DNA from: Vulcanimicrobiota bacterium
Lineage (GTDB): Bacteria; Vulcanimicrobiota; Xenobia; Xenobiales; JADMJV01
Reading direction: 5' to 3'
Assembly (NCBI GenBank): GCA_019637395.1
Contig: JAHBVR010000008.1
Span: 1-64,000, forward strand
DNA: 64,000 nucleotides
Shown here: positions 20,938 to 61,195 of the stretch, piece after piece
Layout of the letters: each line of letters opens with the position of its first letter
Position numbering within the stretch: the first letter of the stretch is position 1
Position numbers and translations under genes: made by a program
Notes under the pieces: model-generated
The model's database searches: none
Told to the model about the DNA's origin: nothing
Seen by the model: the letters and a program-made list of their open reading frames with translations, nothing else

Positions 20938-21640
20938 CTAGGTAGGAAGAGGTTCTTCATCCACTCTCGTTTCTCCGCTGTCTCGGGAAGAGCTCCTCAG
21001 CCCCCGCCACCAGGCCTCCTGGAGTTGCTGCAGGTATTCCTGAACTTGCCTTTTGACGCCGTTGGCGTGCAGCGGCAGCGGGGCCACAGGGGGAAGAAGG
21101 TAGTGGTACATAGGCGGCTTCGGCGTGGTCGGAAAGTTCCTAGAGGCAGGCAGCGGCGGCTCTCCCTCGATGACGACTGGAATAAGGGCGAGGTTGGCCA
21201 TCAGGGCTGCAGTCACAGCCGCCAGCCCGGCCGATTGATTGTCAGTCAGCCTTGCCCTGTTTTAGAGGAAATGCATCCATCCCATAAAGGTATTGCGCCA
21301 AGCCAGGGGTTTTGTAGAGATTGAGAGGCGCACTTGATCCAGGGATCGAGTAGACTAACGTGGTTAGGCGCCAGAATGACCGGACCTCGGTGGGGTAGAT
21401 GGTCCAGTCCCTTGACCTCGATACCGCCAAGTATGGCGAAAATGGCCGTTCTTGACCGTTAGCAGCGGCTCCCAGTTCTTCCATGGCCGCGTCCATGCGG
21501 TAAAGTTACTGCTGCTCCTGGTTGCGCAACTCCCATCGTGCGCCTTCGCTCCAATGTAAAAGGGGGAAGAGCCCGGGCCGAGCAGCAGGGGCAAGAGAAA
21601 GGCGGCCGCGAAGCGAATCCTATGCTGACAAACTGTCACC
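20938..21640 (-). pseudogene. decayed copy of the acyltransferase operon at 40690-41852
   Basis: Minus-strand fragments match the intact plus-strand pair at 40.7-41.9 kb. They run in order: a hydrophobic leader (RIRFAAAFLL), WSEGARWELRNQEQ then a stop, LYRMDAAMEELGAAANGQE, GLDHLPHRGPVILAPNHVSL, PGLAQYLYGMDAFPLKQG and IPVVIEG with a C-terminal coil. The pieces lie in several frames, contain stops, and the region corresponding to ~41490-41640 (including FPEGG) is largely deleted. So both the small exported protein and the 1-acylglycerol-phosphate-type acyltransferase are dead here. The segment is inverted relative to the intact copy. Confidence 0.8.
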
Positions 21641-22215
21641 ACTGGGAAGTTGGAAAAGAGCTTCCGCCCGTTACCCAGTTGAGGGAGCGTCTTGCAAAAC
21701 TTGGGCATACAGAGGCCATACTGGTTCTCTCGAAAACGTCCTTTCCGAACTCTTGGTCTGAAGGATGCTTTTGTTCTCTAGTGAGCGGGCCATCACGTTT
21801 TCTGCGCGTTTATTTTGGCAGTCCGACGGCTCCGCGGCCCCTTCAATTGGCCAGAGAGCGAAGCGCTGCTTGGTTGCGAGAGTTCCAGGAACTTAGGCGA
21901 CTTTCGCGGGCGGGAGAAGCTTGGCGTGGGCGAGCCGAACGGTTACGGTTGGCTATCCTGCATCAGTTGGATTGGGAGGAAGCGGAAATGTTTCCGATCC
22001 TAGCTGGCTTTTTGCATACTGACCGTCCCACTCGCGAGATGCTCTATGAGCATCAGGGGATCCGTAAATTTCTGCCGCAGTTGGAAGACTCTCTGGCTGA
22101 TACTGCCGACAATCGGGCGTGGGAGCGGTTCTCGCTAGACCTTATCCACTTATTGGAGCACCACATTGAACACGAAGAAGATGGACTTTACCTTGTTTTC
22201 GAAAGGCTCTTCTAA
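21622..22215 (+). CDS. fusion of a short conserved domain to a hemerythrin-like (HHE) domain
   Basis: 197 residues from the ATG at 21622. Residues 1-70 (starting MLTNCHHWEVGKELPP) are 50% or more identical to the minus-strand ORF at 40498-40707. Residues ~75-197 fit the hemerythrin HHE cation-binding domain: LHQLDWEEAEMFPIL, EHQGIRKFL and HHIEHEEDGLYLVF. The His expected in the first helix is absent (ERSAAWLREF). HHE proteins bind a di-iron centre and sense or carry oxygen or NO. The start overlaps the decayed minus-strand leader gene head-to-head, as in the other copy. Confidence 0.7.
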   Translation: MLTNCHHWEVGKELPPVTQLRERLAKLGHTEAILVLSKTSFPNSWSEGCFCSLVSGPSRFLRVYFGSPTAPRPLQLARERSAAWLREFQELRRLSRAGEAWRGRAERLRLAILHQLDWEEAEMFPILAGFLHTDRPTREMLYEHQGIRKFLPQLEDSLADTADNRAWERFSLDLIHLLEHHIEHEEDGLYLVFERLF

Positions 22216-22277: not shown

Positions 22278-25200
22278 TTGGCGGTTGCAGGTCCAGCTAT
22301 GCCCAGTTCCGAGCTTGCACCCAGGCTGAACCTCAAGGCTCCTTCACATCTTCTCCACATCCTTGAGGATTTCGACGAGGGAGTCCGCCTGGATGCTCCC
22401 AATACCGCGCTCAGGGCTATGCGGCAGGCATTTGCTCTGCTCTTGAATTTGTCAGCTGATATTCTCGGGGCTGCGTGCGTGCAATTAGGGGCCTCTGCGG
22501 ATCTTTACACGTTAGAGAAAGGCCAGTCCGTAAAGCTCACAGACTCGGAAAATCGAGTGAAAGAGGCTCTGTATTTCCTCTCTCAAAACGACTCAGGAGA
22601 GCTGGGTAAAGAATGCGCAGGAATTTTCTTCGACGCTTCTGGCACTCCACGCCAGTTTTATTTGCTTACTCAGGGCGGCCGGGTAGAAGGCATAATGGGA
22701 GGGCTCTATCGCATTTCGGACTTCTGTAAGGAGCCGACGCGTGCCCCGGGAAGAAGTGAGAGTTTTAAGCTTCGTAACGCCTACCTGCCTCACCTCGAGG
22801 CCTGGATTCAAGCGATCAACGGATTCTTTGAAAAATGTGATCTTTTGTGGGAGCGAACCGACCTCGAGAAACAGCAACGCCTTCTCTACCGAATTTATGA
22901 AACCGAGCTCGAGGTGGGCCAACGAATCGAGTTACATGATTGCAAGGCCTGCATCCCGAGTCGGGTTCTTAATACCCCCATGAAATGGGTCAAGGGGGAA
23001 GGTTTCCTGGGGATCCCACAGGAGGTTCCCGAGCACGTGCTTCATCTGGTCGATCGTTATGCTGCGGCACTGGAAGGCGAGGATATCATCGACTCCACGC
23101 GTTTGCTTCGTGACACCCTTGAGTTTTTGCTAAGGTATTTTGCTGGTGTTGGCAAAATGCTTTGTAAAGAACTTGCCTGTTTGAGTGATAATGCGGAACG
23201 GTTCGCGCGCAATAGTGAGGAGGTGGATAACTGCGAGCGATTGCTGCAAGATTGCGTGGAATCTCTCAAGTCGCATCAGGATGACATCGCCGCCAAAGAT
23301 TTCGTCGGCGTATTTTATCGTCGAGATGCGCACTTGGAACTTCAGCCCCGCTCTCATACGAATATTCTTCTTTTAGAGGGGGTCCTCTCATCGTGGTTCA
23401 AGCAGGAACGCGGACAGACTCCTAGCGCCGAGCGCTACGCCAAAGACTATGAGCGTTTTTTCCCGCTTTTTCGTGATTGGGTCCGGTCGATGGGCCCATA
23501 CTTCAGTCACGCAGAGCACTTTGCCGAGGCCCCCTCCAGTCAGGGCTTTCTGCCATTGACGGTACGTTGTGGTGAGCATCTTCTAGAGTTAGTGGAGCCA
23601 GACTATTTACTACGCATCCGTCAATGCCCGGTTTGCCTGCCAAACCCGATCTGGGTCCAGCAAGCGGCTGCGGAGGCTTCGGTAAAGGCCAAACCGGCAG
23701 CCCCTTCTCTTTCGGCTGAACAGCTTTTGCGTCGGGCTAATACCAAGATGGTTGAACCTGAGAAAGCCCCGGAATTGCTTGAGGCCCCCATCGCGGAGTT
23801 GGGAATACCCAAAACCTATCCTGGCGAATTTCGACCAATCGATATCCCTAGCGACTCTCCTAAATTTTTGGGGCGCGTGCTTCGTCGCCTGGATGTGCGC
23901 CTGCGCCGTGGCGAGCTTTCGCATTCGCGAGATGCATTGCGTGATGCTCTGGACTATCTGTTGCGCTATTGGGCTGGAGCCAGCTTCGTGTGTGCGCGGG
24001 ATTCTGCCAGGCTGAGTATCGACGAAGAGGAAAGGGCTGCCCGAGGAATGGGCATTCAGGAGTGTGAGAAGCTCCTTTATTTCTGCCTCCAGAAGCTCTC
24101 CGAAAGTCCTAATGAACTTGGCGAGGAAATCGTGCAGGTTTTTTACGAACGAGATCTTTTCACTGATCAGCTAAAGCCTGTCGGCAGTCATACCCGCATA
24201 TTGATCACCGACGCAGACTCAGATACTCAAATGCAGTTGTTGGCCGAATTTTGCGAAATGACTGATCCGTGCGACCTGCACCGCTCACGCCGGGATTTAA
24301 AGACCTTTTTGCCGGTCTTGCGAGATTGGCTCACGCGCAGCCAGGCTTTCTTTGAGCAATGTCAGCACCATGAGGAAGATGCCGACGCGAAGGGGCGCAT
24401 GGAGCTTGTTATTCAATGGGACAAGACTTACCTCGAGTTGGTGGCCCCAGATTTCGCCTTTTATGTTCTGCCCGGAAGCGATCTCGTGCCTGACCTGGAA
24501 GTGCCGGAATGGAATGAGCCTGAAGCGGCCAAAGAGGAAGCGACTGTATCCAAGCCCAAGGTGATTACCACCGAGGAACTAGCACTGTCCGAACCATTCC
24601 TCATTCACAAGGTGCAATATGTGGGCATTCAGCCAAACAGTCAGGGAGTGGCCTGTAAGTCAGGAATTATCAGTATCCAGAACGCGGGAGGCGGGTCGTT
24701 GACCGGACGAGCCTATTCGAACCATCCTTGTATTGAGGTGAATCCGAACCGATTCAGAGAGAAAAGTCAATTACAGTATTGGCTGAATGAAACTGCAATC
24801 CCCAAGGACTTTGTGCCTGTCCTTTGGCTTAGGTCGGGGGGGGACGAGCGGCAAATTACGCTCGCTGAGTTGCGTCCTTTGAGTAAGTTCAATACGATGC
24901 CCAAAGCACAGGCCCTGGTGATTACCTACGGTCCCGCAATAATCGGATTCTTGATAACCGACCTTGTGATTATTTTGAAGGCAAAGTCTATCCGAGATGT
25001 GGTCGGAGGAGCTTTAGCTCTAGGGGAGCTGCCGGCTGAAATCGTTTCCCTGGCTCAAACGCATGGAGCTTATATTGGCGGCTTGTTTCTCCTATATGCA
25101 GCAATCTCCCCTGTTGTGACAATGATCGTTTATCGCAAGTTCTCGCATAGTCTGCAAGACCTCCTCACCAAGCATTTTCATCGAGCTCTGGTTTCGCCAG

Positions 25201-25454
25201 CGATCTTTGTGGTAATTATGGCAGCCTTGAACTCTCTGGTCTTTCCTGTTTTGCGGATCGAGAAAATCACTAGTGCCAACCTCTTTCATCTGACTCCATG
25301 GGCGCTGGCGTTTGTTGTTGGTTCCGCGATTTACTGCAATCTGGAATACGAAAGGAAGTTCGCGGAATGGATTCAAGAGCCAGCCTTGCGTAAGATCGTG
25401 CCGTTGAGTCTGATCGCTCTATTCTTTATTCTGTGGACGTTGGCGCTCTCTTAG
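22278..25454 (+). CDS. large triple-repeat membrane protein, unknown
   Basis: The TTG start at 22278 is supported by AGGAGGG seven bases upstream. The 1058-residue protein contains three diverged ~190-residue helical repeats. Their cores are ALRAMRQAFALLLNLSADIL, LLRDTLEFLLRYFAGVGKML and ALRDALDYLLRYWAGASFVC, and their ends are AWIQAINGFFEKC, DWVRSMGPYFSHA and DWLTRSQAFFEQC. A beta-rich segment follows (~760-870), then four or five membrane helices in the last ~200 residues. It lacks a signal peptide, so the repeats should lie in the cytoplasm. Codon use looks less GC-biased than the flanking genes. I do not recognise the family. Confidence 0.75.
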   Translation: MAVAGPAMPSSELAPRLNLKAPSHLLHILEDFDEGVRLDAPNTALRAMRQAFALLLNLSADILGAACVQLGASADLYTLEKGQSVKLTDSENRVKEALYFLSQNDSGELGKECAGIFFDASGTPRQFYLLTQGGRVEGIMGGLYRISDFCKEPTRAPGRSESFKLRNAYLPHLEAWIQAINGFFEKCDLLWERTDLEKQQRLLYRIYETELEVGQRIELHDCKACIPSRVLNTPMKWVKGEGFLGIPQEVPEHVLHLVDRYAAALEGEDIIDSTRLLRDTLEFLLRYFAGVGKMLCKELACLSDNAERFARNSEEVDNCERLLQDCVESLKSHQDDIAAKDFVGVFYRRDAHLELQPRSHTNILLLEGVLSSWFKQERGQTPSAERYAKDYERFFPLFRDWVRSMGPYFSHAEHFAEAPSSQGFLPLTVRCGEHLLELVEPDYLLRIRQCPVCLPNPIWVQQAAAEASVKAKPAAPSLSAEQLLRRANTKMVEPEKAPELLEAPIAELGIPKTYPGEFRPIDIPSDSPKFLGRVLRRLDVRLRRGELSHSRDALRDALDYLLRYWAGASFVCARDSARLSIDEEERAARGMGIQECEKLLYFCLQKLSESPNELGEEIVQVFYERDLFTDQLKPVGSHTRILITDADSDTQMQLLAEFCEMTDPCDLHRSRRDLKTFLPVLRDWLTRSQAFFEQCQHHEEDADAKGRMELVIQWDKTYLELVAPDFAFYVLPGSDLVPDLEVPEWNEPEAAKEEATVSKPKVITTEELALSEPFLIHKVQYVGIQPNSQGVACKSGIISIQNAGGGSLTGRAYSNHPCIEVNPNRFREKSQLQYWLNETAIPKDFVPVLWLRSGGDERQITLAELRPLSKFNTMPKAQALVITYGPAIIGFLITDLVIILKAKSIRDVVGGALALGELPAEIVSLAQTHGAYIGGLFLLYAAISPVVTMIVYRKFSHSLQDLLTKHFHRALVSPAIFVVIMAALNSLVFPVLRIEKITSANLFHLTPWALAFVVGSAIYCNLEYERKFAEWIQEPALRKIVPLSLIALFFILWTLALS

Positions 25455-40164: not shown

Positions 40165-40510
40165 GCAGACCGTGACCGATCCCGTCAGGTTCCAGGCTTG
40201 GTGGAAGCTCCATTTGCGCCGGTAGAGGACGACGGGCGCCTTCTCGCGGTCCGTCAGTGAAGGCTGGGCTGGAGGGACGCGGGCGGGGCGGGAGTCCAGA
40301 TAGAGGATGGAGTTGCCGGTCGGGAGATCAGCTGGGCTGGTGGCGGAGCCGCTGATTCCCGGGAAGTAGGAGGTCTCCCGGGTGTCCAGGTTGAGCGCGC
40401 CGACCTGGCCCTGGCGATAGCGGGGCGGGTTGTCTGAAAGAGAATTTTATCGCCGGCCGGAGACCAGGGCGGGTCACGTTCTGGTCCTGGTCCCAGGTCA
40501 GGCGTAGAGG
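40165..40510 (-). pseudogene. fragment copy of the TolB-like gene at 42211-43122
   Basis: This stretch matches the 3' part of the intact TolB-like gene base for base over long runs (for example GTAGAGGACGAC, GGAAGTAGGAGGTCTCCCGG and AGAGAATTTTATCGCC). It has small indels that break the reading frame and an internal deletion joining the repeat near GACCAGCGCGG to the earlier WDQ repeat. It has no start. It marks a partial duplication of the 42 kb locus. Confidence 0.85.
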
Positions 40511-40707
40511 CTCCAATAGACTCGCATGAACATCGAAGGGCCATTGATCAGCAAGTGAGAGTACGATTGCTCCCAGTCTGGCGGGAAGGACGTTTGGGAG
40601 CTAACCAGTATGGCCTCACGATGGCTTATTTCTTGAAGTCGTTCCGTCAGTTGTTGAGCGGGGGGCAGGCTGCGGCCCAGGTCCCAGTGATGGCAACGAG
40701 TCAACAT
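40498..40707 (-). CDS. short conserved protein, paralogue of 21622-22215 N-terminus
   Basis: 69 residues starting MLTRCHHWDLGRSLPP. About half the residues match the first 70 residues of the hemerythrin fusion, including CHHW, LPP, EAILV, TSFP, GPS and RVY. Between the two DNA copies many differences are at third codon positions in this frame, which argues that this strand is, or recently was, protein-coding. It overlaps the divergent plus-strand gene start by 18 bases. The HHE domain is missing. Function unknown; it could also be a relic. Confidence 0.5.
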   Translation of the reverse strand: MLTRCHHWDLGRSLPPAQQLTERLQEISHREAILVSSQTSFPPDWEQSYSHLLINGPSMFMRVYWSLYA

Positions 40708-41199
40708 CTGCGCAGGTTCGTGCTGGTCCTGTTGGCGCTCCTGTCGTTGGGGGCGACTTTCGATTGGAGCGAGGATGCTCGCTGGGAGCTGCGCTCCCAG
40801 GATCAAACCCTCTATCGTCTCGATGAAACGATGGCTGAGTTGGGCGCTCCCCCGACCGAGCAGGAAATGTTCGTGATGGACAAGATCGGCCTGTTGGTTC
40901 GCCAGCGCAATCAGCGAGCTGTCAATCTGACCGTGCTGAATGGCAGTTGGGAAGTGCTGCGTAACGGTCAGGTGATGGGACGAGTGAATCAGCCGCTGAC
41001 GGAATGGCAGGCTCAACTGGGAGATCCCCTTACAGTCTTTATCAATCCTCAGAAAGTCGGCGTGATTTACTATTACAGAGGCTCCTTGATCGACATGGGG
41101 TTGATGGTGGCCGAGGACAAGGTGCTGTCGGTCATGTTTGTGGAACCCGGTTACCTGCGCGGTGCCCTGGAGCGTTCGGGTTACACGCCCAAGCAGTGA
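40690..41199 (+). CDS. small exported protein upstream of an acyltransferase
   Basis: 169 residues from the ATG at 40690, beginning with a basic stretch and a hydrophobic signal (LRRFVLVLLALLSLGATF). The rest is soluble with no known motif; DETMAELGAPPTEQE is also found in the decayed copy near 21490, so the pair is an old linked unit. The frame is open to 40555, but that part is antisense to the conserved minus ORF. Its stop overlaps the acyltransferase GTG start. Confidence 0.65.
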   Translation: MATSQHLRRFVLVLLALLSLGATFDWSEDARWELRSQDQTLYRLDETMAELGAPPTEQEMFVMDKIGLLVRQRNQRAVNLTVLNGSWEVLRNGQVMGRVNQPLTEWQAQLGDPLTVFINPQKVGVIYYYRGSLIDMGLMVAEDKVLSVMFVEPGYLRGALERSGYTPKQ

Positions 41200-41852
41200 G
41201 CCCGTCGACTCTTTCCTGGCCGCATTGGGCCTTTTACGTGACCGGTCGCTGGTGGTGGAAGTTTTTCTTTCGGATGTTTGGTGGGATCCGCATCGAGGGT
41301 CTGGAGTATCTGCCCTGCCGCGGCCCCGTCATTCTGGCTCCCAACCATGTGAGTCTGGCCGACCCCTGGATTATGTGTGCGGCTGTGCCGAATCCGATGC
41401 GCTCGATGGCTGCCGAGTATCTTTATAAGATTCCTGGCCTGGCGCAGTACCTTTACGGTATGGGCGCTTTCCCGCTCAAGCAGGGCGCCAGTGACCTGCA
41501 GGCAATGGGCAAGGCCCGGGATTTTCTCAAGCGGGGAGCGACCGTGATGATCTTTCCTGAGGGAGGTTGCAGTCCGGACGGCGCTCCTCGTCCGTGGCAG
41601 CCTGGAGTGGCGGTTCTGGCATTGCGGACCGGCGCTCCGGTCATCCCGGTGGTGATTGAGGGGAGTCGGGGCTGTTTGCCCCTGGGTTCCTTTCGTCCGC
41701 GTTACAGTCCCATGCGGGTGACTTTTCTGGAGCCGGTTCCGGCTCCGCCGATGCAGTCCGGTGGTATGCGCCATCAGGTGAAAGAACACCTGAAGCGATT
41801 GGAGGAGGCCTGGCGGAGAGCTGTGCCGACAAAAGTCTCTTCGGACGGTTGA
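41196..41852 (+). CDS. 1-acyl-glycerol-phosphate acyltransferase (PlsC-like)
   Basis: 218 residues starting at GTG within the upstream stop (GTGA). Acyltransferase box NHVSLADPW (NHxxxxD) and FPEGG are present, followed by PVIPVVIEG. Such enzymes add the second acyl chain in phosphatidic acid synthesis or acylate other lipids. A frame open to 41004 is out of phase with the family. A dead copy lies at 20938-21640. Confidence 0.9.
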   Translation: MSPSTLSWPHWAFYVTGRWWWKFFFRMFGGIRIEGLEYLPCRGPVILAPNHVSLADPWIMCAAVPNPMRSMAAEYLYKIPGLAQYLYGMGAFPLKQGASDLQAMGKARDFLKRGATVMIFPEGGCSPDGAPRPWQPGVAVLALRTGAPVIPVVIEGSRGCLPLGSFRPRYSPMRVTFLEPVPAPPMQSGGMRHQVKEHLKRLEEAWRRAVPTKVSSDG

Positions 41853-42210: not shown

Positions 42211-43122
42211 TTACGGGCCGGTCAGGTTCCAGGAGGCCTGGCGGAAACTCCATTGGGTGAGTTCGAATTCGCGCCGGTAGAGGACGACCGGCGCCGTCTC
42301 GCGGTCCGTAAGGGAGAACATGGTAAGGGCCGGGCTGGAGGGGGCGCGGGCGGAGCGGTAGTCCAGGTAGAGGATGGAGTTGCCGTCGGGAGACCAGCTG
42401 GGTTGGTGGGCGGAGCCGCCGATTTCAGGGAAGTAGGAGGTCTCCCGGGTGTCCAGGTTGAGCACGCCGATCTGGCCCTGGCGATAGCGGGTGCGGGTCG
42501 TCTGAAAGAGAATTTTATCGCCGCCCGGAGACCAGCGCGGGTCGACTTCGTCCTGGTTGCTGTTGGTAAGACGGGTTTCCTCGCCAGTAGCGATATCGAC
42601 CGAATAGAGGTCGCTCTGGCCGTTGCGCCGGCTGGCGAAGACCAGGCTTTGGCCGTCCGGCGACCAGCTCGGGGTGGCGTTCTGGCCCTGGTCCCAGGTC
42701 AGGCGTAGCGGTTCCGCTTCGGGCTTGTCCAGCGGCAGCAGCATGATCTCGTCGTTGCCGAAGCGATTGCTGGTAAAGGCCAGCCAGTTGCCGTCCGGAG
42801 AAGGCGCCGGCTGCCGATCCAGAGCGAGGTGACGATGTAGAACCCGCTCTTCCTGGCGCTCCAGGTTCCAGGCGGCCAGTTCCCAGTTGCCGCGTAGCAG
42901 CTTGCGGTAATAGACTTCGCCGCGAGCCGGGCAATAGGCGGCATCGGCCTCGCTGCCCACCTGGTTGGTGAGGCGATGCCAATCCCGTCCGTCACGCCGG
43001 ACCACGAAGATCTTGCTCAGCGGTCCGCTCTGGGCGGTGATCAGGAAGCGCTCAGACAAAGGGCCGGCGGTCGCTTGGACCACCAGCCCCAGTGTCAGGA
43101 CCGTTCGAAGGGCTCGAACCAA
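42211..43122 (-). CDS. secreted TolB-like WD40/PD40 beta-propeller protein
   Basis: 303 residues with a signal peptide (MVRALRTVLTLGLVVQATAG). Four or five PD40-type blades are visible (APSPDGNWLAFTSNR, SWSPDGQSLVFASRR, RWSPGGDKILFQTT, SWSPDGNSILYLD). TolB itself links outer-membrane and periplasmic proteins in the Tol-Pal system, but here no tol genes are nearby, so it may be an independent periplasmic propeller. Six bases from the next gene, it is probably cotranscribed with it. A degraded partial copy lies at 40165-40510. Confidence 0.85.
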   Translation of the reverse strand: MVRALRTVLTLGLVVQATAGPLSERFLITAQSGPLSKIFVVRRDGRDWHRLTNQVGSEADAAYCPARGEVYYRKLLRGNWELAAWNLERQEERVLHRHLALDRQPAPSPDGNWLAFTSNRFGNDEIMLLPLDKPEAEPLRLTWDQGQNATPSWSPDGQSLVFASRRNGQSDLYSVDIATGEETRLTNSNQDEVDPRWSPGGDKILFQTTRTRYRQGQIGVLNLDTRETSYFPEIGGSAHQPSWSPDGNSILYLDYRSARAPSSPALTMFSLTDRETAPVVLYRREFELTQWSFRQASWNLTGP

Positions 43123-46527: not shown

Positions 46528-46590
46528 GCTGTCATGTTCTTCCGGGTTCGAGAGGCACCCTCTCGCGCACCTGATTGGACTGCCGCGCTC

Positions 46591-47095
46591 ACCGGTGCAC
46601 GCATTGCCGGAACCGGGTGCACGCATGCCGGGCAAGGGCGGGTCGCGCTCACCGGTGCACGCATTGCCGGAACTGGTGCACGCAGGCCGGGCAAGGGTGG
46701 GTCGCGCTCACCGGTGCACGCATTGCCGGAACCGGTGCACGCAGGCCGGGCAAGGGCGGGTCGCGCTCACCGGTGCACGCATTGCCGGAACCGGGTGCAC
46801 GCACACAGGGCAGAGCGGGTCGCGCTTACCGGTGCACGCATTGCCGGAACGGGTGCACGCCGCCGGGCACAGCGGGTCGCGCTCACCGGTGCACGCATTG
46901 CCGGAACTGGTGCACGCAGGCCGGACAGAGCGGGTCGCGCTTACCGGTGCACGCATTGCCGGAACGGGTGCACGCCGCCGGGCACAGCGGGTCGCGCTCA
47001 CTGGTGCACGCATTGCCGGGAAACCGGGGTGCACGCACGCAGGGCAGGGGGGTCGCGCTTACCGGTGCACGCATTGCCGGCACCCGGTGCACGCC
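46591..47095. repeat. nine-unit tandem array of a ~59-base repeat
   Basis: The 20-base core ACCGGTGCACGCATTGCCGG starts at 46591, 46651, 46710, 46769, 46828, 46884, 46943, 47000 (one mismatch) and 47061, at 56-61-base spacing. Each core is followed by a second GTGCACGC and a variable GC-rich linker ending GGGTCGCGCT. The core contains the palindromes ACCGGT and GTGCAC. The related array at 59808-59940 carries it in opposite orientation. Unit length is not a multiple of three and the linkers differ, so it is not coding and not CRISPR. Confidence 0.93.
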
Positions 47096-47134
47096 ACCCC
47101 GACCCGAAAAGCCCGCGCGCACCGAGTGAGGGCG

Positions 47135-47446
47135 CTATTTAGCGCTTTGAGCGTAGATCAGCGAGAGACTGGCGGGAGGACGAACTTCGCCGCTCTCCCA
47201 GGACATGACGATGACCGGAGTTACGTTCAGTCTTTCGGCTGCTTGAGCCACGGTGAAGCCGGCGGACTGGCGCAGAGCCGCCAGGTCCTTGGCGTAGAAG
47301 TCGCAAACCCGGGTTTCCACTCGGGGTAACGACTCGGCCAGTAGTCGATCCCCGAGTCTTTTCAGTTGCTCGGGACGGTTTCGGCTCCAGAAATCACGCA
47401 GTTCGTCATCCGACATGGCGACCAGATCGGGGCAGATTTTCTTCAT
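47135..47446 (-). CDS. HTH (XRE-type) DNA-binding protein
   Basis: 103 residues. The C-terminal half, LAALRQSAGFTVAQAAERLN followed by VMSWESGEVRPP, is a helix-turn-helix of the Cro/C1 or MqsA-like type; the N-terminal ~50 residues are helical and acidic (MSDDELRDFW). Such proteins often act as autoregulating antitoxins. It faces the repeat array and the nucleotidyltransferase-like gene downstream, suggesting a former two-gene module. Confidence 0.75.
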   Translation of the reverse strand: MKKICPDLVAMSDDELRDFWSRNRPEQLKRLGDRLLAESLPRVETRVCDFYAKDLAALRQSAGFTVAQAAERLNVTPVIVMSWESGEVRPPASLSLIYAQSAK

Positions 47447-59143: not shown

Positions 59144-59604
59144 TCAACGGCCGGGCAACTCTGGCCTCCGGTCAGCCGCTGAGCACCTCCAGAATATCCC
59201 CGGAGACATCGTGGAAGGAAGTAAACGCGAAATCTCCCGGTCAAAGGTCGCCAGCCGGGCTAAATGGGAATGAGCCAGTGTCAGCAGATGAGCCTCGGTA
59301 ACCTGTTGGTGATGAATAATGAGCGGTCGGAATGGGCTGTTCGCGAGGCTGACCTGGTCCGGCAGAAAGCTGTGACCGGGAGAGCCCGTATAGACTGGAG
59401 TGTTAGCAGAGCTTGAGCAACGCTCGCGGCCGAGGTAAAGACCCGGGGATTGGAGGAAATCCGTACGAAGGCCGCCTCGGTGAACGAGCAAGTCGCCCAG
59501 CGCTGGTCTCGGTTCAGGATGAACCAGTCCCGCGCGGCCTGGTGATGGATATGAACCGGCCCTGCGAGGGCGATCAGGACGTTTGCGTCCAATGGTTTTA
59601 CCAC
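59144..59604 (-). pseudogene. vapC: VapC-type PIN toxin, single frameshift
   Basis: PIN-domain ribonuclease toxin. N-terminal part (PLDANVLIALAG, FTEAAFVRISSNP) is in one frame; after RALP the family-like GHSFLPDQVSLANS, VTEAHLLTLAHSH and LATFDREISRLL lie in another. Adding one C to the CCC run near 59378 restores the frame. Catalytic Asp residues (LDAN, TEAH region) are kept. It overlaps the antitoxin's stop by seven bases. Confidence 0.75.
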
Positions 59605-59807
59605 TCTTCCAGGGCATCCCTAACTTGTTCGGCGGTAACCAACGGATCATCCGGGCGACAGGGAAAACTGGGGAAGAGCGAGTTGCCCGATGCTAGCGCG
59701 GCTGGCTGCAGGCCTTTCCGCGCCAGTTGCGACAAAGCTTGACCCAAGGAAATCCGTCTGGACTTAGCCAGGCTTCTGGCAATCTGCAAGACGTCGTCAT
59801 CGAGCGC
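59598..59807 (-). CDS. vapB: VapB-type antitoxin, N-terminus lost into repeat array
   Basis: About 69 residues, ALDDDVLQIARSLAKSRRIS then SLGQALSQLARKGL, match ribbon-helix-helix VapB antitoxins. The usual start (M-x-T-T-hydrophobic) is missing: immediately upstream lies the 57-base repeat, with no ATG or GTG in frame close by. Expression would need a remote start or is lost. Start position is therefore approximate. Confidence 0.6.
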   Translation of the reverse strand, partial: ALDDDVLQIARSLAKSRRISLGQALSQLARKGLQPAALASGNSLFPSFPCRPDDPLVTAEQVRDALEEW

Positions 59808-59940
59808 GGGCCGCTCGGGTCGGGGGCGTGCACTGGTGCCGGCAATGCGTGCACGGGTGCGCGGGCTGCTCGGGTTGGGGGTGCGTGCACCGGTGCCGGC
59901 AATGCGTGCACGGGTGAGCGCGGGCTGCTCGGGTTGGGGG
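59808..59940. repeat. second, inverted array of the GTGCAC repeat family
   Basis: Two cores (GGTGCCGGCAATGCGTGCAC, near 59835 and 59892) spaced 57 bases, with three copies of a GCTCGGGTTGGGGG-like linker near 59812, 59866 and 59926. The core is the reverse complement of that in the 46.6-47.1 kb array, with one extra difference. It sits between the vapB remnant and the zinc-ribbon/propeller gene end. Confidence 0.85.
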
Positions 59941-59944
59941 GCGT

Positions 59945-61195
59945 TCAGCGGCTGATGAAGAGCTGGCCGTCCTGGTCGAGGATGTACCACTCGCGGCCGT
60001 TCCAGAATGGGGGCAGCAGGCTGCCGGCGAAAGGAGCGGGTAGTTTGTCGCCGCTTTGCACGTGGAAGGTGTGGCTGCCCAGCGAGAGCAGGTAGAGCTG
60101 GCCTTCTTGAGACAGGGCCAGGGCCGCGTCCGGGCCGACCCAAGGCGAAGTGGTGCAGTAATGTGGGAGCTCAAGCTGCTCCACCCGGCTGGTTTCCAAT
60201 TGGACGCGCACCAGATTGCGGCCGAAGCTGGCAATCAGGTCGTGGGCTCCGCCGCTCAGAGCCAGAATGGTGGAACTCTGGCTGCCGCTCAGTTGGTGGA
60301 GTTGCACTTCGGGATGAGTCTTCAGCCACCACAGCGAGCCATCCTGACCGGCCCAGTACGCGTTAGGGCCACTGGTCCAGGGGGCCAGCGCGGCTGGCGG
60401 GCAGGGACACTGGCGCTGAAATACTTCGCCGCCGCTGACCGCTTCAAAGCCGCGCAGGTCCCCGAGTTCGCTAAGATAGACCAGAGTATGATCACACCAG
60501 AACAGGCGGGGAAAGCGCTGCCGATCCTGAGCGGACCCTTCTAATACCTGATTCCAGGCCAGTTGCAGCCTGTTTTGTTGCAGGCGGAAGAGCTGCAGAC
60601 TGCGATTCTCTCCATCCATGACCAGCGCCGCCAGCCACTGCCCCCCGTCGGCCGCGATCGGACACAGCAGCGGGCCGCGCAGGCGCTGGATTTTGCGGGC
60701 GCTGTTGCGGATGTCCAGCAGATCGATGAGCGTCACCTGGTCCGGACCGGGCAGGATGAGAAATCCGTGCAGGTAGGCGGGCGGCGAAGAGGGTGCCCGG
60801 GCTGCCGGCTGAGGAGTTTCCAGGCGAAGCGGCGGCCGGGAGAGTTGGCGCAAGTCACCCTGCCGGCTGAGCATAAAGAAACGCCCGTCCAACAGTCCGG
60901 CCCAGGCCGGAGCCAGGTCCGAAGCGATGGGTTCGTGCCAGTCGCCCGGCCAGCTCAAGGGCAGCCGGTGCAGTGGGGTATCGGCTTGTTCCGGGAGCCA
61001 GTCCAGAGCTTGTAGCGAATGCCCACAATTGCGACAAAACCTCGACAACCAGCGATTGGCCGCCTGACAGTCGGGACAGCGCCGGAAATAGCGCTGACAT
61101 TGGGCACACTGGCCTTCGTTGGAGCTGCTTCCCAAAGGATGACTGGCCGGGTTTTCCGGATTGGTCTCTGGATAGGGACATTCGCTGGGCAGCAT
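59945..61195 (-). CDS. double zinc-ribbon plus beta-propeller protein
   Basis: 416 residues. N-terminal CAQCQRYFRRCPDC and FCRNCGHSL form two zinc ribbons (residues ~30-60), the rest (~80-416) looks like a beta-propeller (LLDGRFFMLSRQGDLRQL, AYWAGQDGSLWWLKTH, EWYILDQDGQLFISR). No membrane segment. Probably a scaffold binding RNA, DNA or the Hsp70-like protein, which also has an N-terminal zinc finger. First gene of the minus-strand group; starts near the divergent coiled-coil gene. Confidence 0.75.
   Translation of the reverse strand: MLPSECPYPETNPENPASHPLGSSSNEGQCAQCQRYFRRCPDCQAANRWLSRFCRNCGHSLQALDWLPEQADTPLHRLPLSWPGDWHEPIASDLAPAWAGLLDGRFFMLSRQGDLRQLSRPPLRLETPQPAARAPSSPPAYLHGFLILPGPDQVTLIDLLDIRNSARKIQRLRGPLLCPIAADGGQWLAALVMDGENRSLQLFRLQQNRLQLAWNQVLEGSAQDRQRFPRLFWCDHTLVYLSELGDLRGFEAVSGGEVFQRQCPCPPAALAPWTSGPNAYWAGQDGSLWWLKTHPEVQLHQLSGSQSSTILALSGGAHDLIASFGRNLVRVQLETSRVEQLELPHYCTTSPWVGPDAALALSQEGQLYLLSLGSHTFHVQSGDKLPAPFAGSLLPPFWNGREWYILDQDGQLFISR

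Follow-up and report, generated by a model that had tools for sequence, protein, structure and literature searches.

The 69-residue open reading frame (ORF) at 40498-40707 is the N-terminal domain of a hemerythrin-like (HHE) fusion protein without its HHE part. In the explanation that we consider probable, a pair of overlapping genes was duplicated, complementary halves were lost from the two copies, and the solo ORF was left behind as the 5' control region of its neighbours. The stretch of DNA analysed (the window, 64,000 nucleotides) corresponds to contig 35 in a genome of 7.66 Mb from the Eremiobacterota, here called G000, and the features on which the argument turns are the following.

20938..21640, minus strand: pseudogene remnant of another leader-plsC pair, oriented head-to-head with the fusion gene
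21622..22215, plus strand: fusion gene, with the N-terminal domain in residues 1-65 and the HHE four-helix bundle in residues ~70-197
22278..25454, plus strand: 1058-residue membrane protein, downstream of the fusion gene in G000, G003 and G004
40180..40515, minus strand: decayed partial TolB-like copy in two pieces, joined beside the solo ORF in the place of HHE
40498-40707, minus strand: solo copy
40586..40595, minus strand (also 21734-21743, plus strand): AAACGTCCTT, candidate embedded control site for leader-plsC
40690..41199, plus strand: leader gene with signal peptide MATSQHLRRFVLVLLALLSLGA; likely start ATG 40690 or GTG 40687
41196..41852, plus strand: plsC-like 1-acylglycerol-3-phosphate acyltransferase (PF01553, 9e-23), overlapping the leader stop (GTGA)
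42211..43122, minus strand: parent TolB-like gene (WD40/PD40 repeat), the old neighbour of leader-plsC

As the initial annotation had proposed, the minus-strand ORF at 40498-40707 and the plus-strand ORF at 21622 encode matching proteins of about 70 residues. The former translates to MLTRCHHWDLGRSLPPAQQLTERLQEISHREAILVSSQTSFPPDWEQSYSHLLINGPSMFMRVYWSLYA followed by a stop; the latter gives MLTNCHHWEVGKELPPVTQLRERLAKLGHTEAILVLSKTSFPNSWSEGCFCSLVSGPSRFLRVYFGSPTA, after which the HHE domain continues in frame. In a search of the whole genome, the solo segment matched 21622-21831 (+) at E 1.5e-21 (1.9e-21 when the search was reversed), 55% of 65-66 residues being identical; consequently, the likeness is not a matter of chance. 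It had also been claimed that the codon differences fall largely at third positions, and this was borne out: between the two copies, differences are distributed 23/20/37 over the codon positions of the MLTxCHHW frame, and pN/pS is 0.45 in that frame versus 1.25 in the codon-aligned antisense (leader) frame. Furthermore, of the six frames, only MLTxCHHW is open throughout the five sequences, which come from four species of a single Eremiobacterota genus, and the pN/pS of this frame lies between 0.31 and 0.66 in 10 of 10 pairwise comparisons. Other frames give values mostly near or above 1, except for the antisense frame that mirrors MLTxCHHW by phase, which is closed by stops. A five-taxon codon likelihood analysis put M0 omega at about 0.24; under both trees tried, a fully neutral model was worse than M0 by about 25 lnL. 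Thus, with pN/pS compared on both strands, the substitution pattern favours this frame, and the MLTxCHHW segment is a real protein-coding family, conserved at the genus level.

Genome searches with the 70-residue segment found relatives in G002, G003 and G004 (E 1e-18 to 3e-30), that is, in three of the four congeneric species; it was absent elsewhere among 58 relatives, and a scan of 84,980 species genomes returned only three matches (JALHOV010000207, JAFEBA010000043 and JADMJV010000142). In all three of these species, the segment forms the N-terminal part of an HHE fusion of 201-217 residues, and the relative of the solo copy in G002, with 71% identity, is a full fusion. G005, which belongs to the same family, encodes, directly after a TolB-like gene, a 209-residue HHE protein whose N-terminal part is much diverged. 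In these searches, the combination of this N-terminal domain with HHE is restricted to one Eremiobacterota genus. The initial annotation saw a short protein family, once alone and once fused to hemerythrin. Both forms do occur, but not as a free-standing family to which HHE was added once, since the fusion is older; an independent, widespread small-protein family was likewise rejected, because outside the fusion just two truncated copies were found.

Comparison of the loci shows how the two forms are related. G002 and G003 each have a single fusion gene, which faces an intact leader-plsC pair head-to-head. In G003, the 1059-residue gene, the fusion, the leader and plsC lie in one block, and the TolB gene is elsewhere, reading directly into pilC; in G002, the order is TolB, plsC, leader, fusion, pilC. 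Genomes outside the family but within the same order have leader-plsC convergent to TolB and lack an HHE gene there. The window carries the block twice, at 21.6 kb and at 40.5 kb. At 21.6 kb, the fusion and the 1058-residue gene are intact, and leader-plsC is a pseudogene with an internal deletion of ~550 bp, a frameshift and further gaps, and a TAA stop interrupts even the leader match. The 40.5-kb copy has an intact leader-plsC pair and an intact TolB gene; pieces of TolB lie where G002 has the HHE part, so that TolB-plsC-leader-solo-TolB fragment-pilC in G000 stands against TolB-plsC-leader-HHE-pilC in G002. These pieces (40180..40515) match 42267-42557 (87%) and 42652-42715 (84%) of the parent gene. 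The fragment carries about seven indels, as read from the alignment, and 24 private substitutions spread 9/7/8 by codon position, and is therefore decaying neutrally. Its copying postdates the split of G000 and G002 and covers roughly the last third of the solo branch.

The 1058-residue protein itself is C-terminally membrane-anchored and has two repeated halves; within the genus, identity over its first 300 residues is 73-85%, and it has no Pfam or NCBIfam match.

The fusion is thus the older state, because it is intact in G002, G003 and G004 and because G005 has a distant HHE protein with an N-terminal domain. The solo ORF is what remained after HHE was deleted at one of two duplicated loci. 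Of the suggestion that one copy had either gained or kept an HHE domain, only the second part holds, the other copy having lost it; a gain by the 21.6-kb copy is ruled out by the intact single-copy fusions in G002 and G003. In G004, the pair was split independently and in another way than in G000. The order there is TolB, plsC, leader, truncated fusion N-terminus, insertion, full fusion and a 1091-residue gene, and a 363-bp direct repeat of the overlap region, with 98.9% identity between its copies, stands on either side of the insertion, so that both genes kept their 5' ends. The insertion spans ~1 kb (G004:C173, L016 9241-10059) and contains a PemK/MazF-like gene and, upstream, a small ORF.

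Taken together, these arrangements suggest the following course of events. An ancestral HHE fusion gene would have stood head-to-head with the leader and plsC, their 5' ends overlapping by 18-21 bp, and, to judge from this geometry, the start signals of each transcription unit would have lain inside the coding sequence of the other gene. The locus would then have been duplicated, most likely ahead of the G000/G002 split. One copy (21.6 kb) would have kept the fusion and its neighbour and left leader-plsC to decay; the other (40.5 kb) would have kept leader-plsC and lost its HHE part to the rearrangement that brought in the TolB fragment. The solo ORF would remain because its N-terminal codons hold the 5' control region of leader-plsC. 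The order of duplication and losses is uncertain, however, since the paralog tree places both paralogs poorly (the sequences are too short and too diverged to be dated against G003 and G004) and no second locus was found in the 82% complete assembly of G002.

The 5' ends of the two genes need closer attention. The initial annotation described an acyltransferase leader that overlaps both copies head-to-head. Both places do show an overlap, though the partner at 21 kb is a pseudogene rather than an intact gene; nor is the leader part of the acyltransferase, since a signal-peptide gene of its own, upstream of plsC, encodes it. The leader protein has no Pfam family. It contains two 'LGxP' style repeats, which may resemble BamE/SmpA- or BLIP-like domains, and its gene adjoins plsC and TolB across the order. 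Orthologs are found in G002, G003 and G004 and also in genomes of the same order, where no HHE gene lies upstream; these last begin directly with a short signal peptide and have a different gene upstream. A start codon (ATG, GTG or TTG) is present at the short-leader position in all species, G003 having to use TTG, and by-eye reading of the short form gives a textbook signal peptide. Thus, ATG 40690 or GTG 40687 is the most likely start. With such starts, the head-to-head overlap of leader and fusion is 18-21 bp in G000, G002, G003 and G004 and, at 40.5 kb, involves the solo ORF; most of the apparent 90-bp overlap is therefore non-coding for the leader. The pair resembles other divergent (head-to-head) overlapping prokaryotic pairs in that two genes have overlapping 5' ends, conserved here in four species. 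It differs in that the actual overlap is short, and the apparent 87-90 bp are an artefact of start choice; overlaps of this kind above 60 bp have all been judged to be start misannotations (PMC2478687).

A long leader would nevertheless offer another explanation for the conservation of the segment: it could be the 5' coding region of the leader, with the MLTxCHHW frame as its mirror image. In all species, the leader frame can indeed open at a conserved ATG that lies 87-90 bp inside the segment and is the complement of the invariant CAT codon of H29, and from there the frame stays open. However, within the 90-bp stretch shared with the long leader ORF, pN/pS is mostly 0.8-1.4 in the leader frame compared with 0.37-0.81 in the fusion frame, so that the leader frame puts no amino-acid constraint on the segment in the overlap. 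In addition, homology runs well beyond the upstream ATG, where the leader frame has stops in G002, G003 and G004, and carries on into HHE. No extension of this kind is present in leader homologs elsewhere, and the published record of overlaps above 60 bp points the same way (PMC2478687). Leader-frame coding was consequently rejected as the cause of conservation, and we regard it as highly improbable.

AAACGTCCTT is identical in all five sequences, third codon positions included, and is tentatively put forward as a candidate for the embedded control site of leader-plsC. The whole fusion has eight degenerate codons that are fully invariant, and five of these, AAA ACG TCC among them, lie in codons 29-40; this excess of invariant synonymous codons has p 0.007-0.02 by shuffle for a window of codons chosen after looking. 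A scan for sigma-70-type promoters found no recognisable site in any of the five loci, and thus the proposal of a promoter draws solely on geometry and synonymous conservation. As a regulatory motif throughout the window, AAACGTCCTT was discarded, being not enriched (4 one-mismatch matches versus 3.2 expected).

The solo piece probably persists, then, by carrying the 5' signals of leader-plsC, and it is possibly still a one-domain protein. The alternative that it is first of all a working protein of this kind, for instance one that regulates or partners the full fusion made from the other locus, is plausible, though we do not favour it. The stop lies four residues past the predicted end of the domain, and the ORF has no indels in 195 bp where about 4.9 would be expected at the rate of the neighbouring fragment (p 0.008); a constrained promoter, however, would resist indels too. 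Changes on the solo branch are spread 3/3/9 by codon position, with 9 synonymous to 6 nonsynonymous, and omega is 0.14-0.16 when left free. Nevertheless, neutrality of the solo branch cannot be rejected at the 5% level (2 delta lnL 3.1-3.5, p 0.06-0.08), so that the codon test on this branch alone is suggestive, not significant; only about a third of the branch postdates the loss of HHE, and most of the signal may be older. Moreover, K38, which is invariant in the fusions, is changed in the solo ORF, and the solo copy of G004 is too recent to tell. Given the result of the neutral-branch test, a retained control region with a frame that is possibly coding was ranked above a proven small protein. 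That both splits left stand-alone N-terminal domains that are still made as protein and act as regulator-like partners of the HHE protein seems unlikely. If true, it would mean that a short gene was born from an embedded promoter region after duplication had freed an overlapping pair, twice in one genus.

The protein from which the solo piece derives is a cytoplasmic, degenerate HHE protein. Its start is most likely 21622 rather than GTG 21538, because the alignment holds only from MLT onward. Residues 86-190 match PF01814 (2e-10), and all four fusions score 38.7-41.7 bits against a curated cutoff of 25.3; the solo ORF, in which the HHE part is missing, has no PF01814 match. Two AlphaFold models agree on the strands and helices through residue 47 and then on a four-helix bundle (helices 70-96, 102-131, 135-159 and 163-197; pLDDT about 90). 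The fusion shares conserved EHxG and HLLEHHIEHEE stretches with other HHE proteins and differs from them in its additional N-terminal domain, which has no assigned family. Sequence alignments of the fusions do not give the full di-iron ligand set (H, HxxxE, H, HxxxE): helix 1 has no conserved His, and the His of HxxxE in helix 2 is Gln in three of the four (QxxxE/Q) and His in G004 only; H144 of helix 3 and H181xxxE185 of helix 4 are kept. The di-iron site thus looks incomplete, and a role as a simple oxygen carrier is unlikely. From the pair of domains and the incomplete metal site, one may guess at a cytoplasmic switch that responds to small molecules, redox state or metals; a sensor or structural role is likewise a guess.

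For the N-terminal domain, both models predict beta 4-9, alpha 17-26, beta 31-37 and alpha 43-47, and beta 50-55 and 60-65 are clear in the second model only; the element order predicted from five sequences is beta-alpha-beta-alpha-beta-beta. This is the order of TusA/DUF2249 domains, and a combined architecture of DUF2249 (PF10006) and hemerythrin (PF01814) has been reported (PMC6282519). It is therefore conceivable, if rather doubtful, that the domain is a diverged DUF2249 with a TusA/SirA-like fold, in which case the architecture would already be known. The likeness is that of an alpha/beta domain of ~70 residues joined to HHE, and TusA/YhhP structures are among the weak matches in a PDB fold search with the two models. 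However, no fold match is significant (E 1.5 or worse), the D-x-R and PRPL motifs of DUF2249 are absent, and no sequence relationship is detectable: the domain has no Pfam match to PF10006, profile-profile comparison gives a probability below 1% (hhalign 0.2-0.5%), and membership by sequence was accordingly rejected. A search of whole genomes with PF10006 found nothing in the genus, and a PDB sequence search gave nothing credible.

For a phylum whose members are mostly uncultured, this locus contributes an alpha/beta domain that is restricted to one lineage and joined to a metal-poor hemerythrin-like bundle. More generally, a divergent overlap ties two genes together, since a clean deletion of either damages the 5' end of the other; duplication resolves the tie by complementary loss and leaves a short ORF, which annotation pipelines would miss or call a small-protein family. 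Elsewhere in the window, at 46575-47300 and 59598-60143, tandem-like 'ALTGARIAGTG' / 'HRCTHCRN' repeats appear in several frames and may represent a mobile or recombination-prone element.
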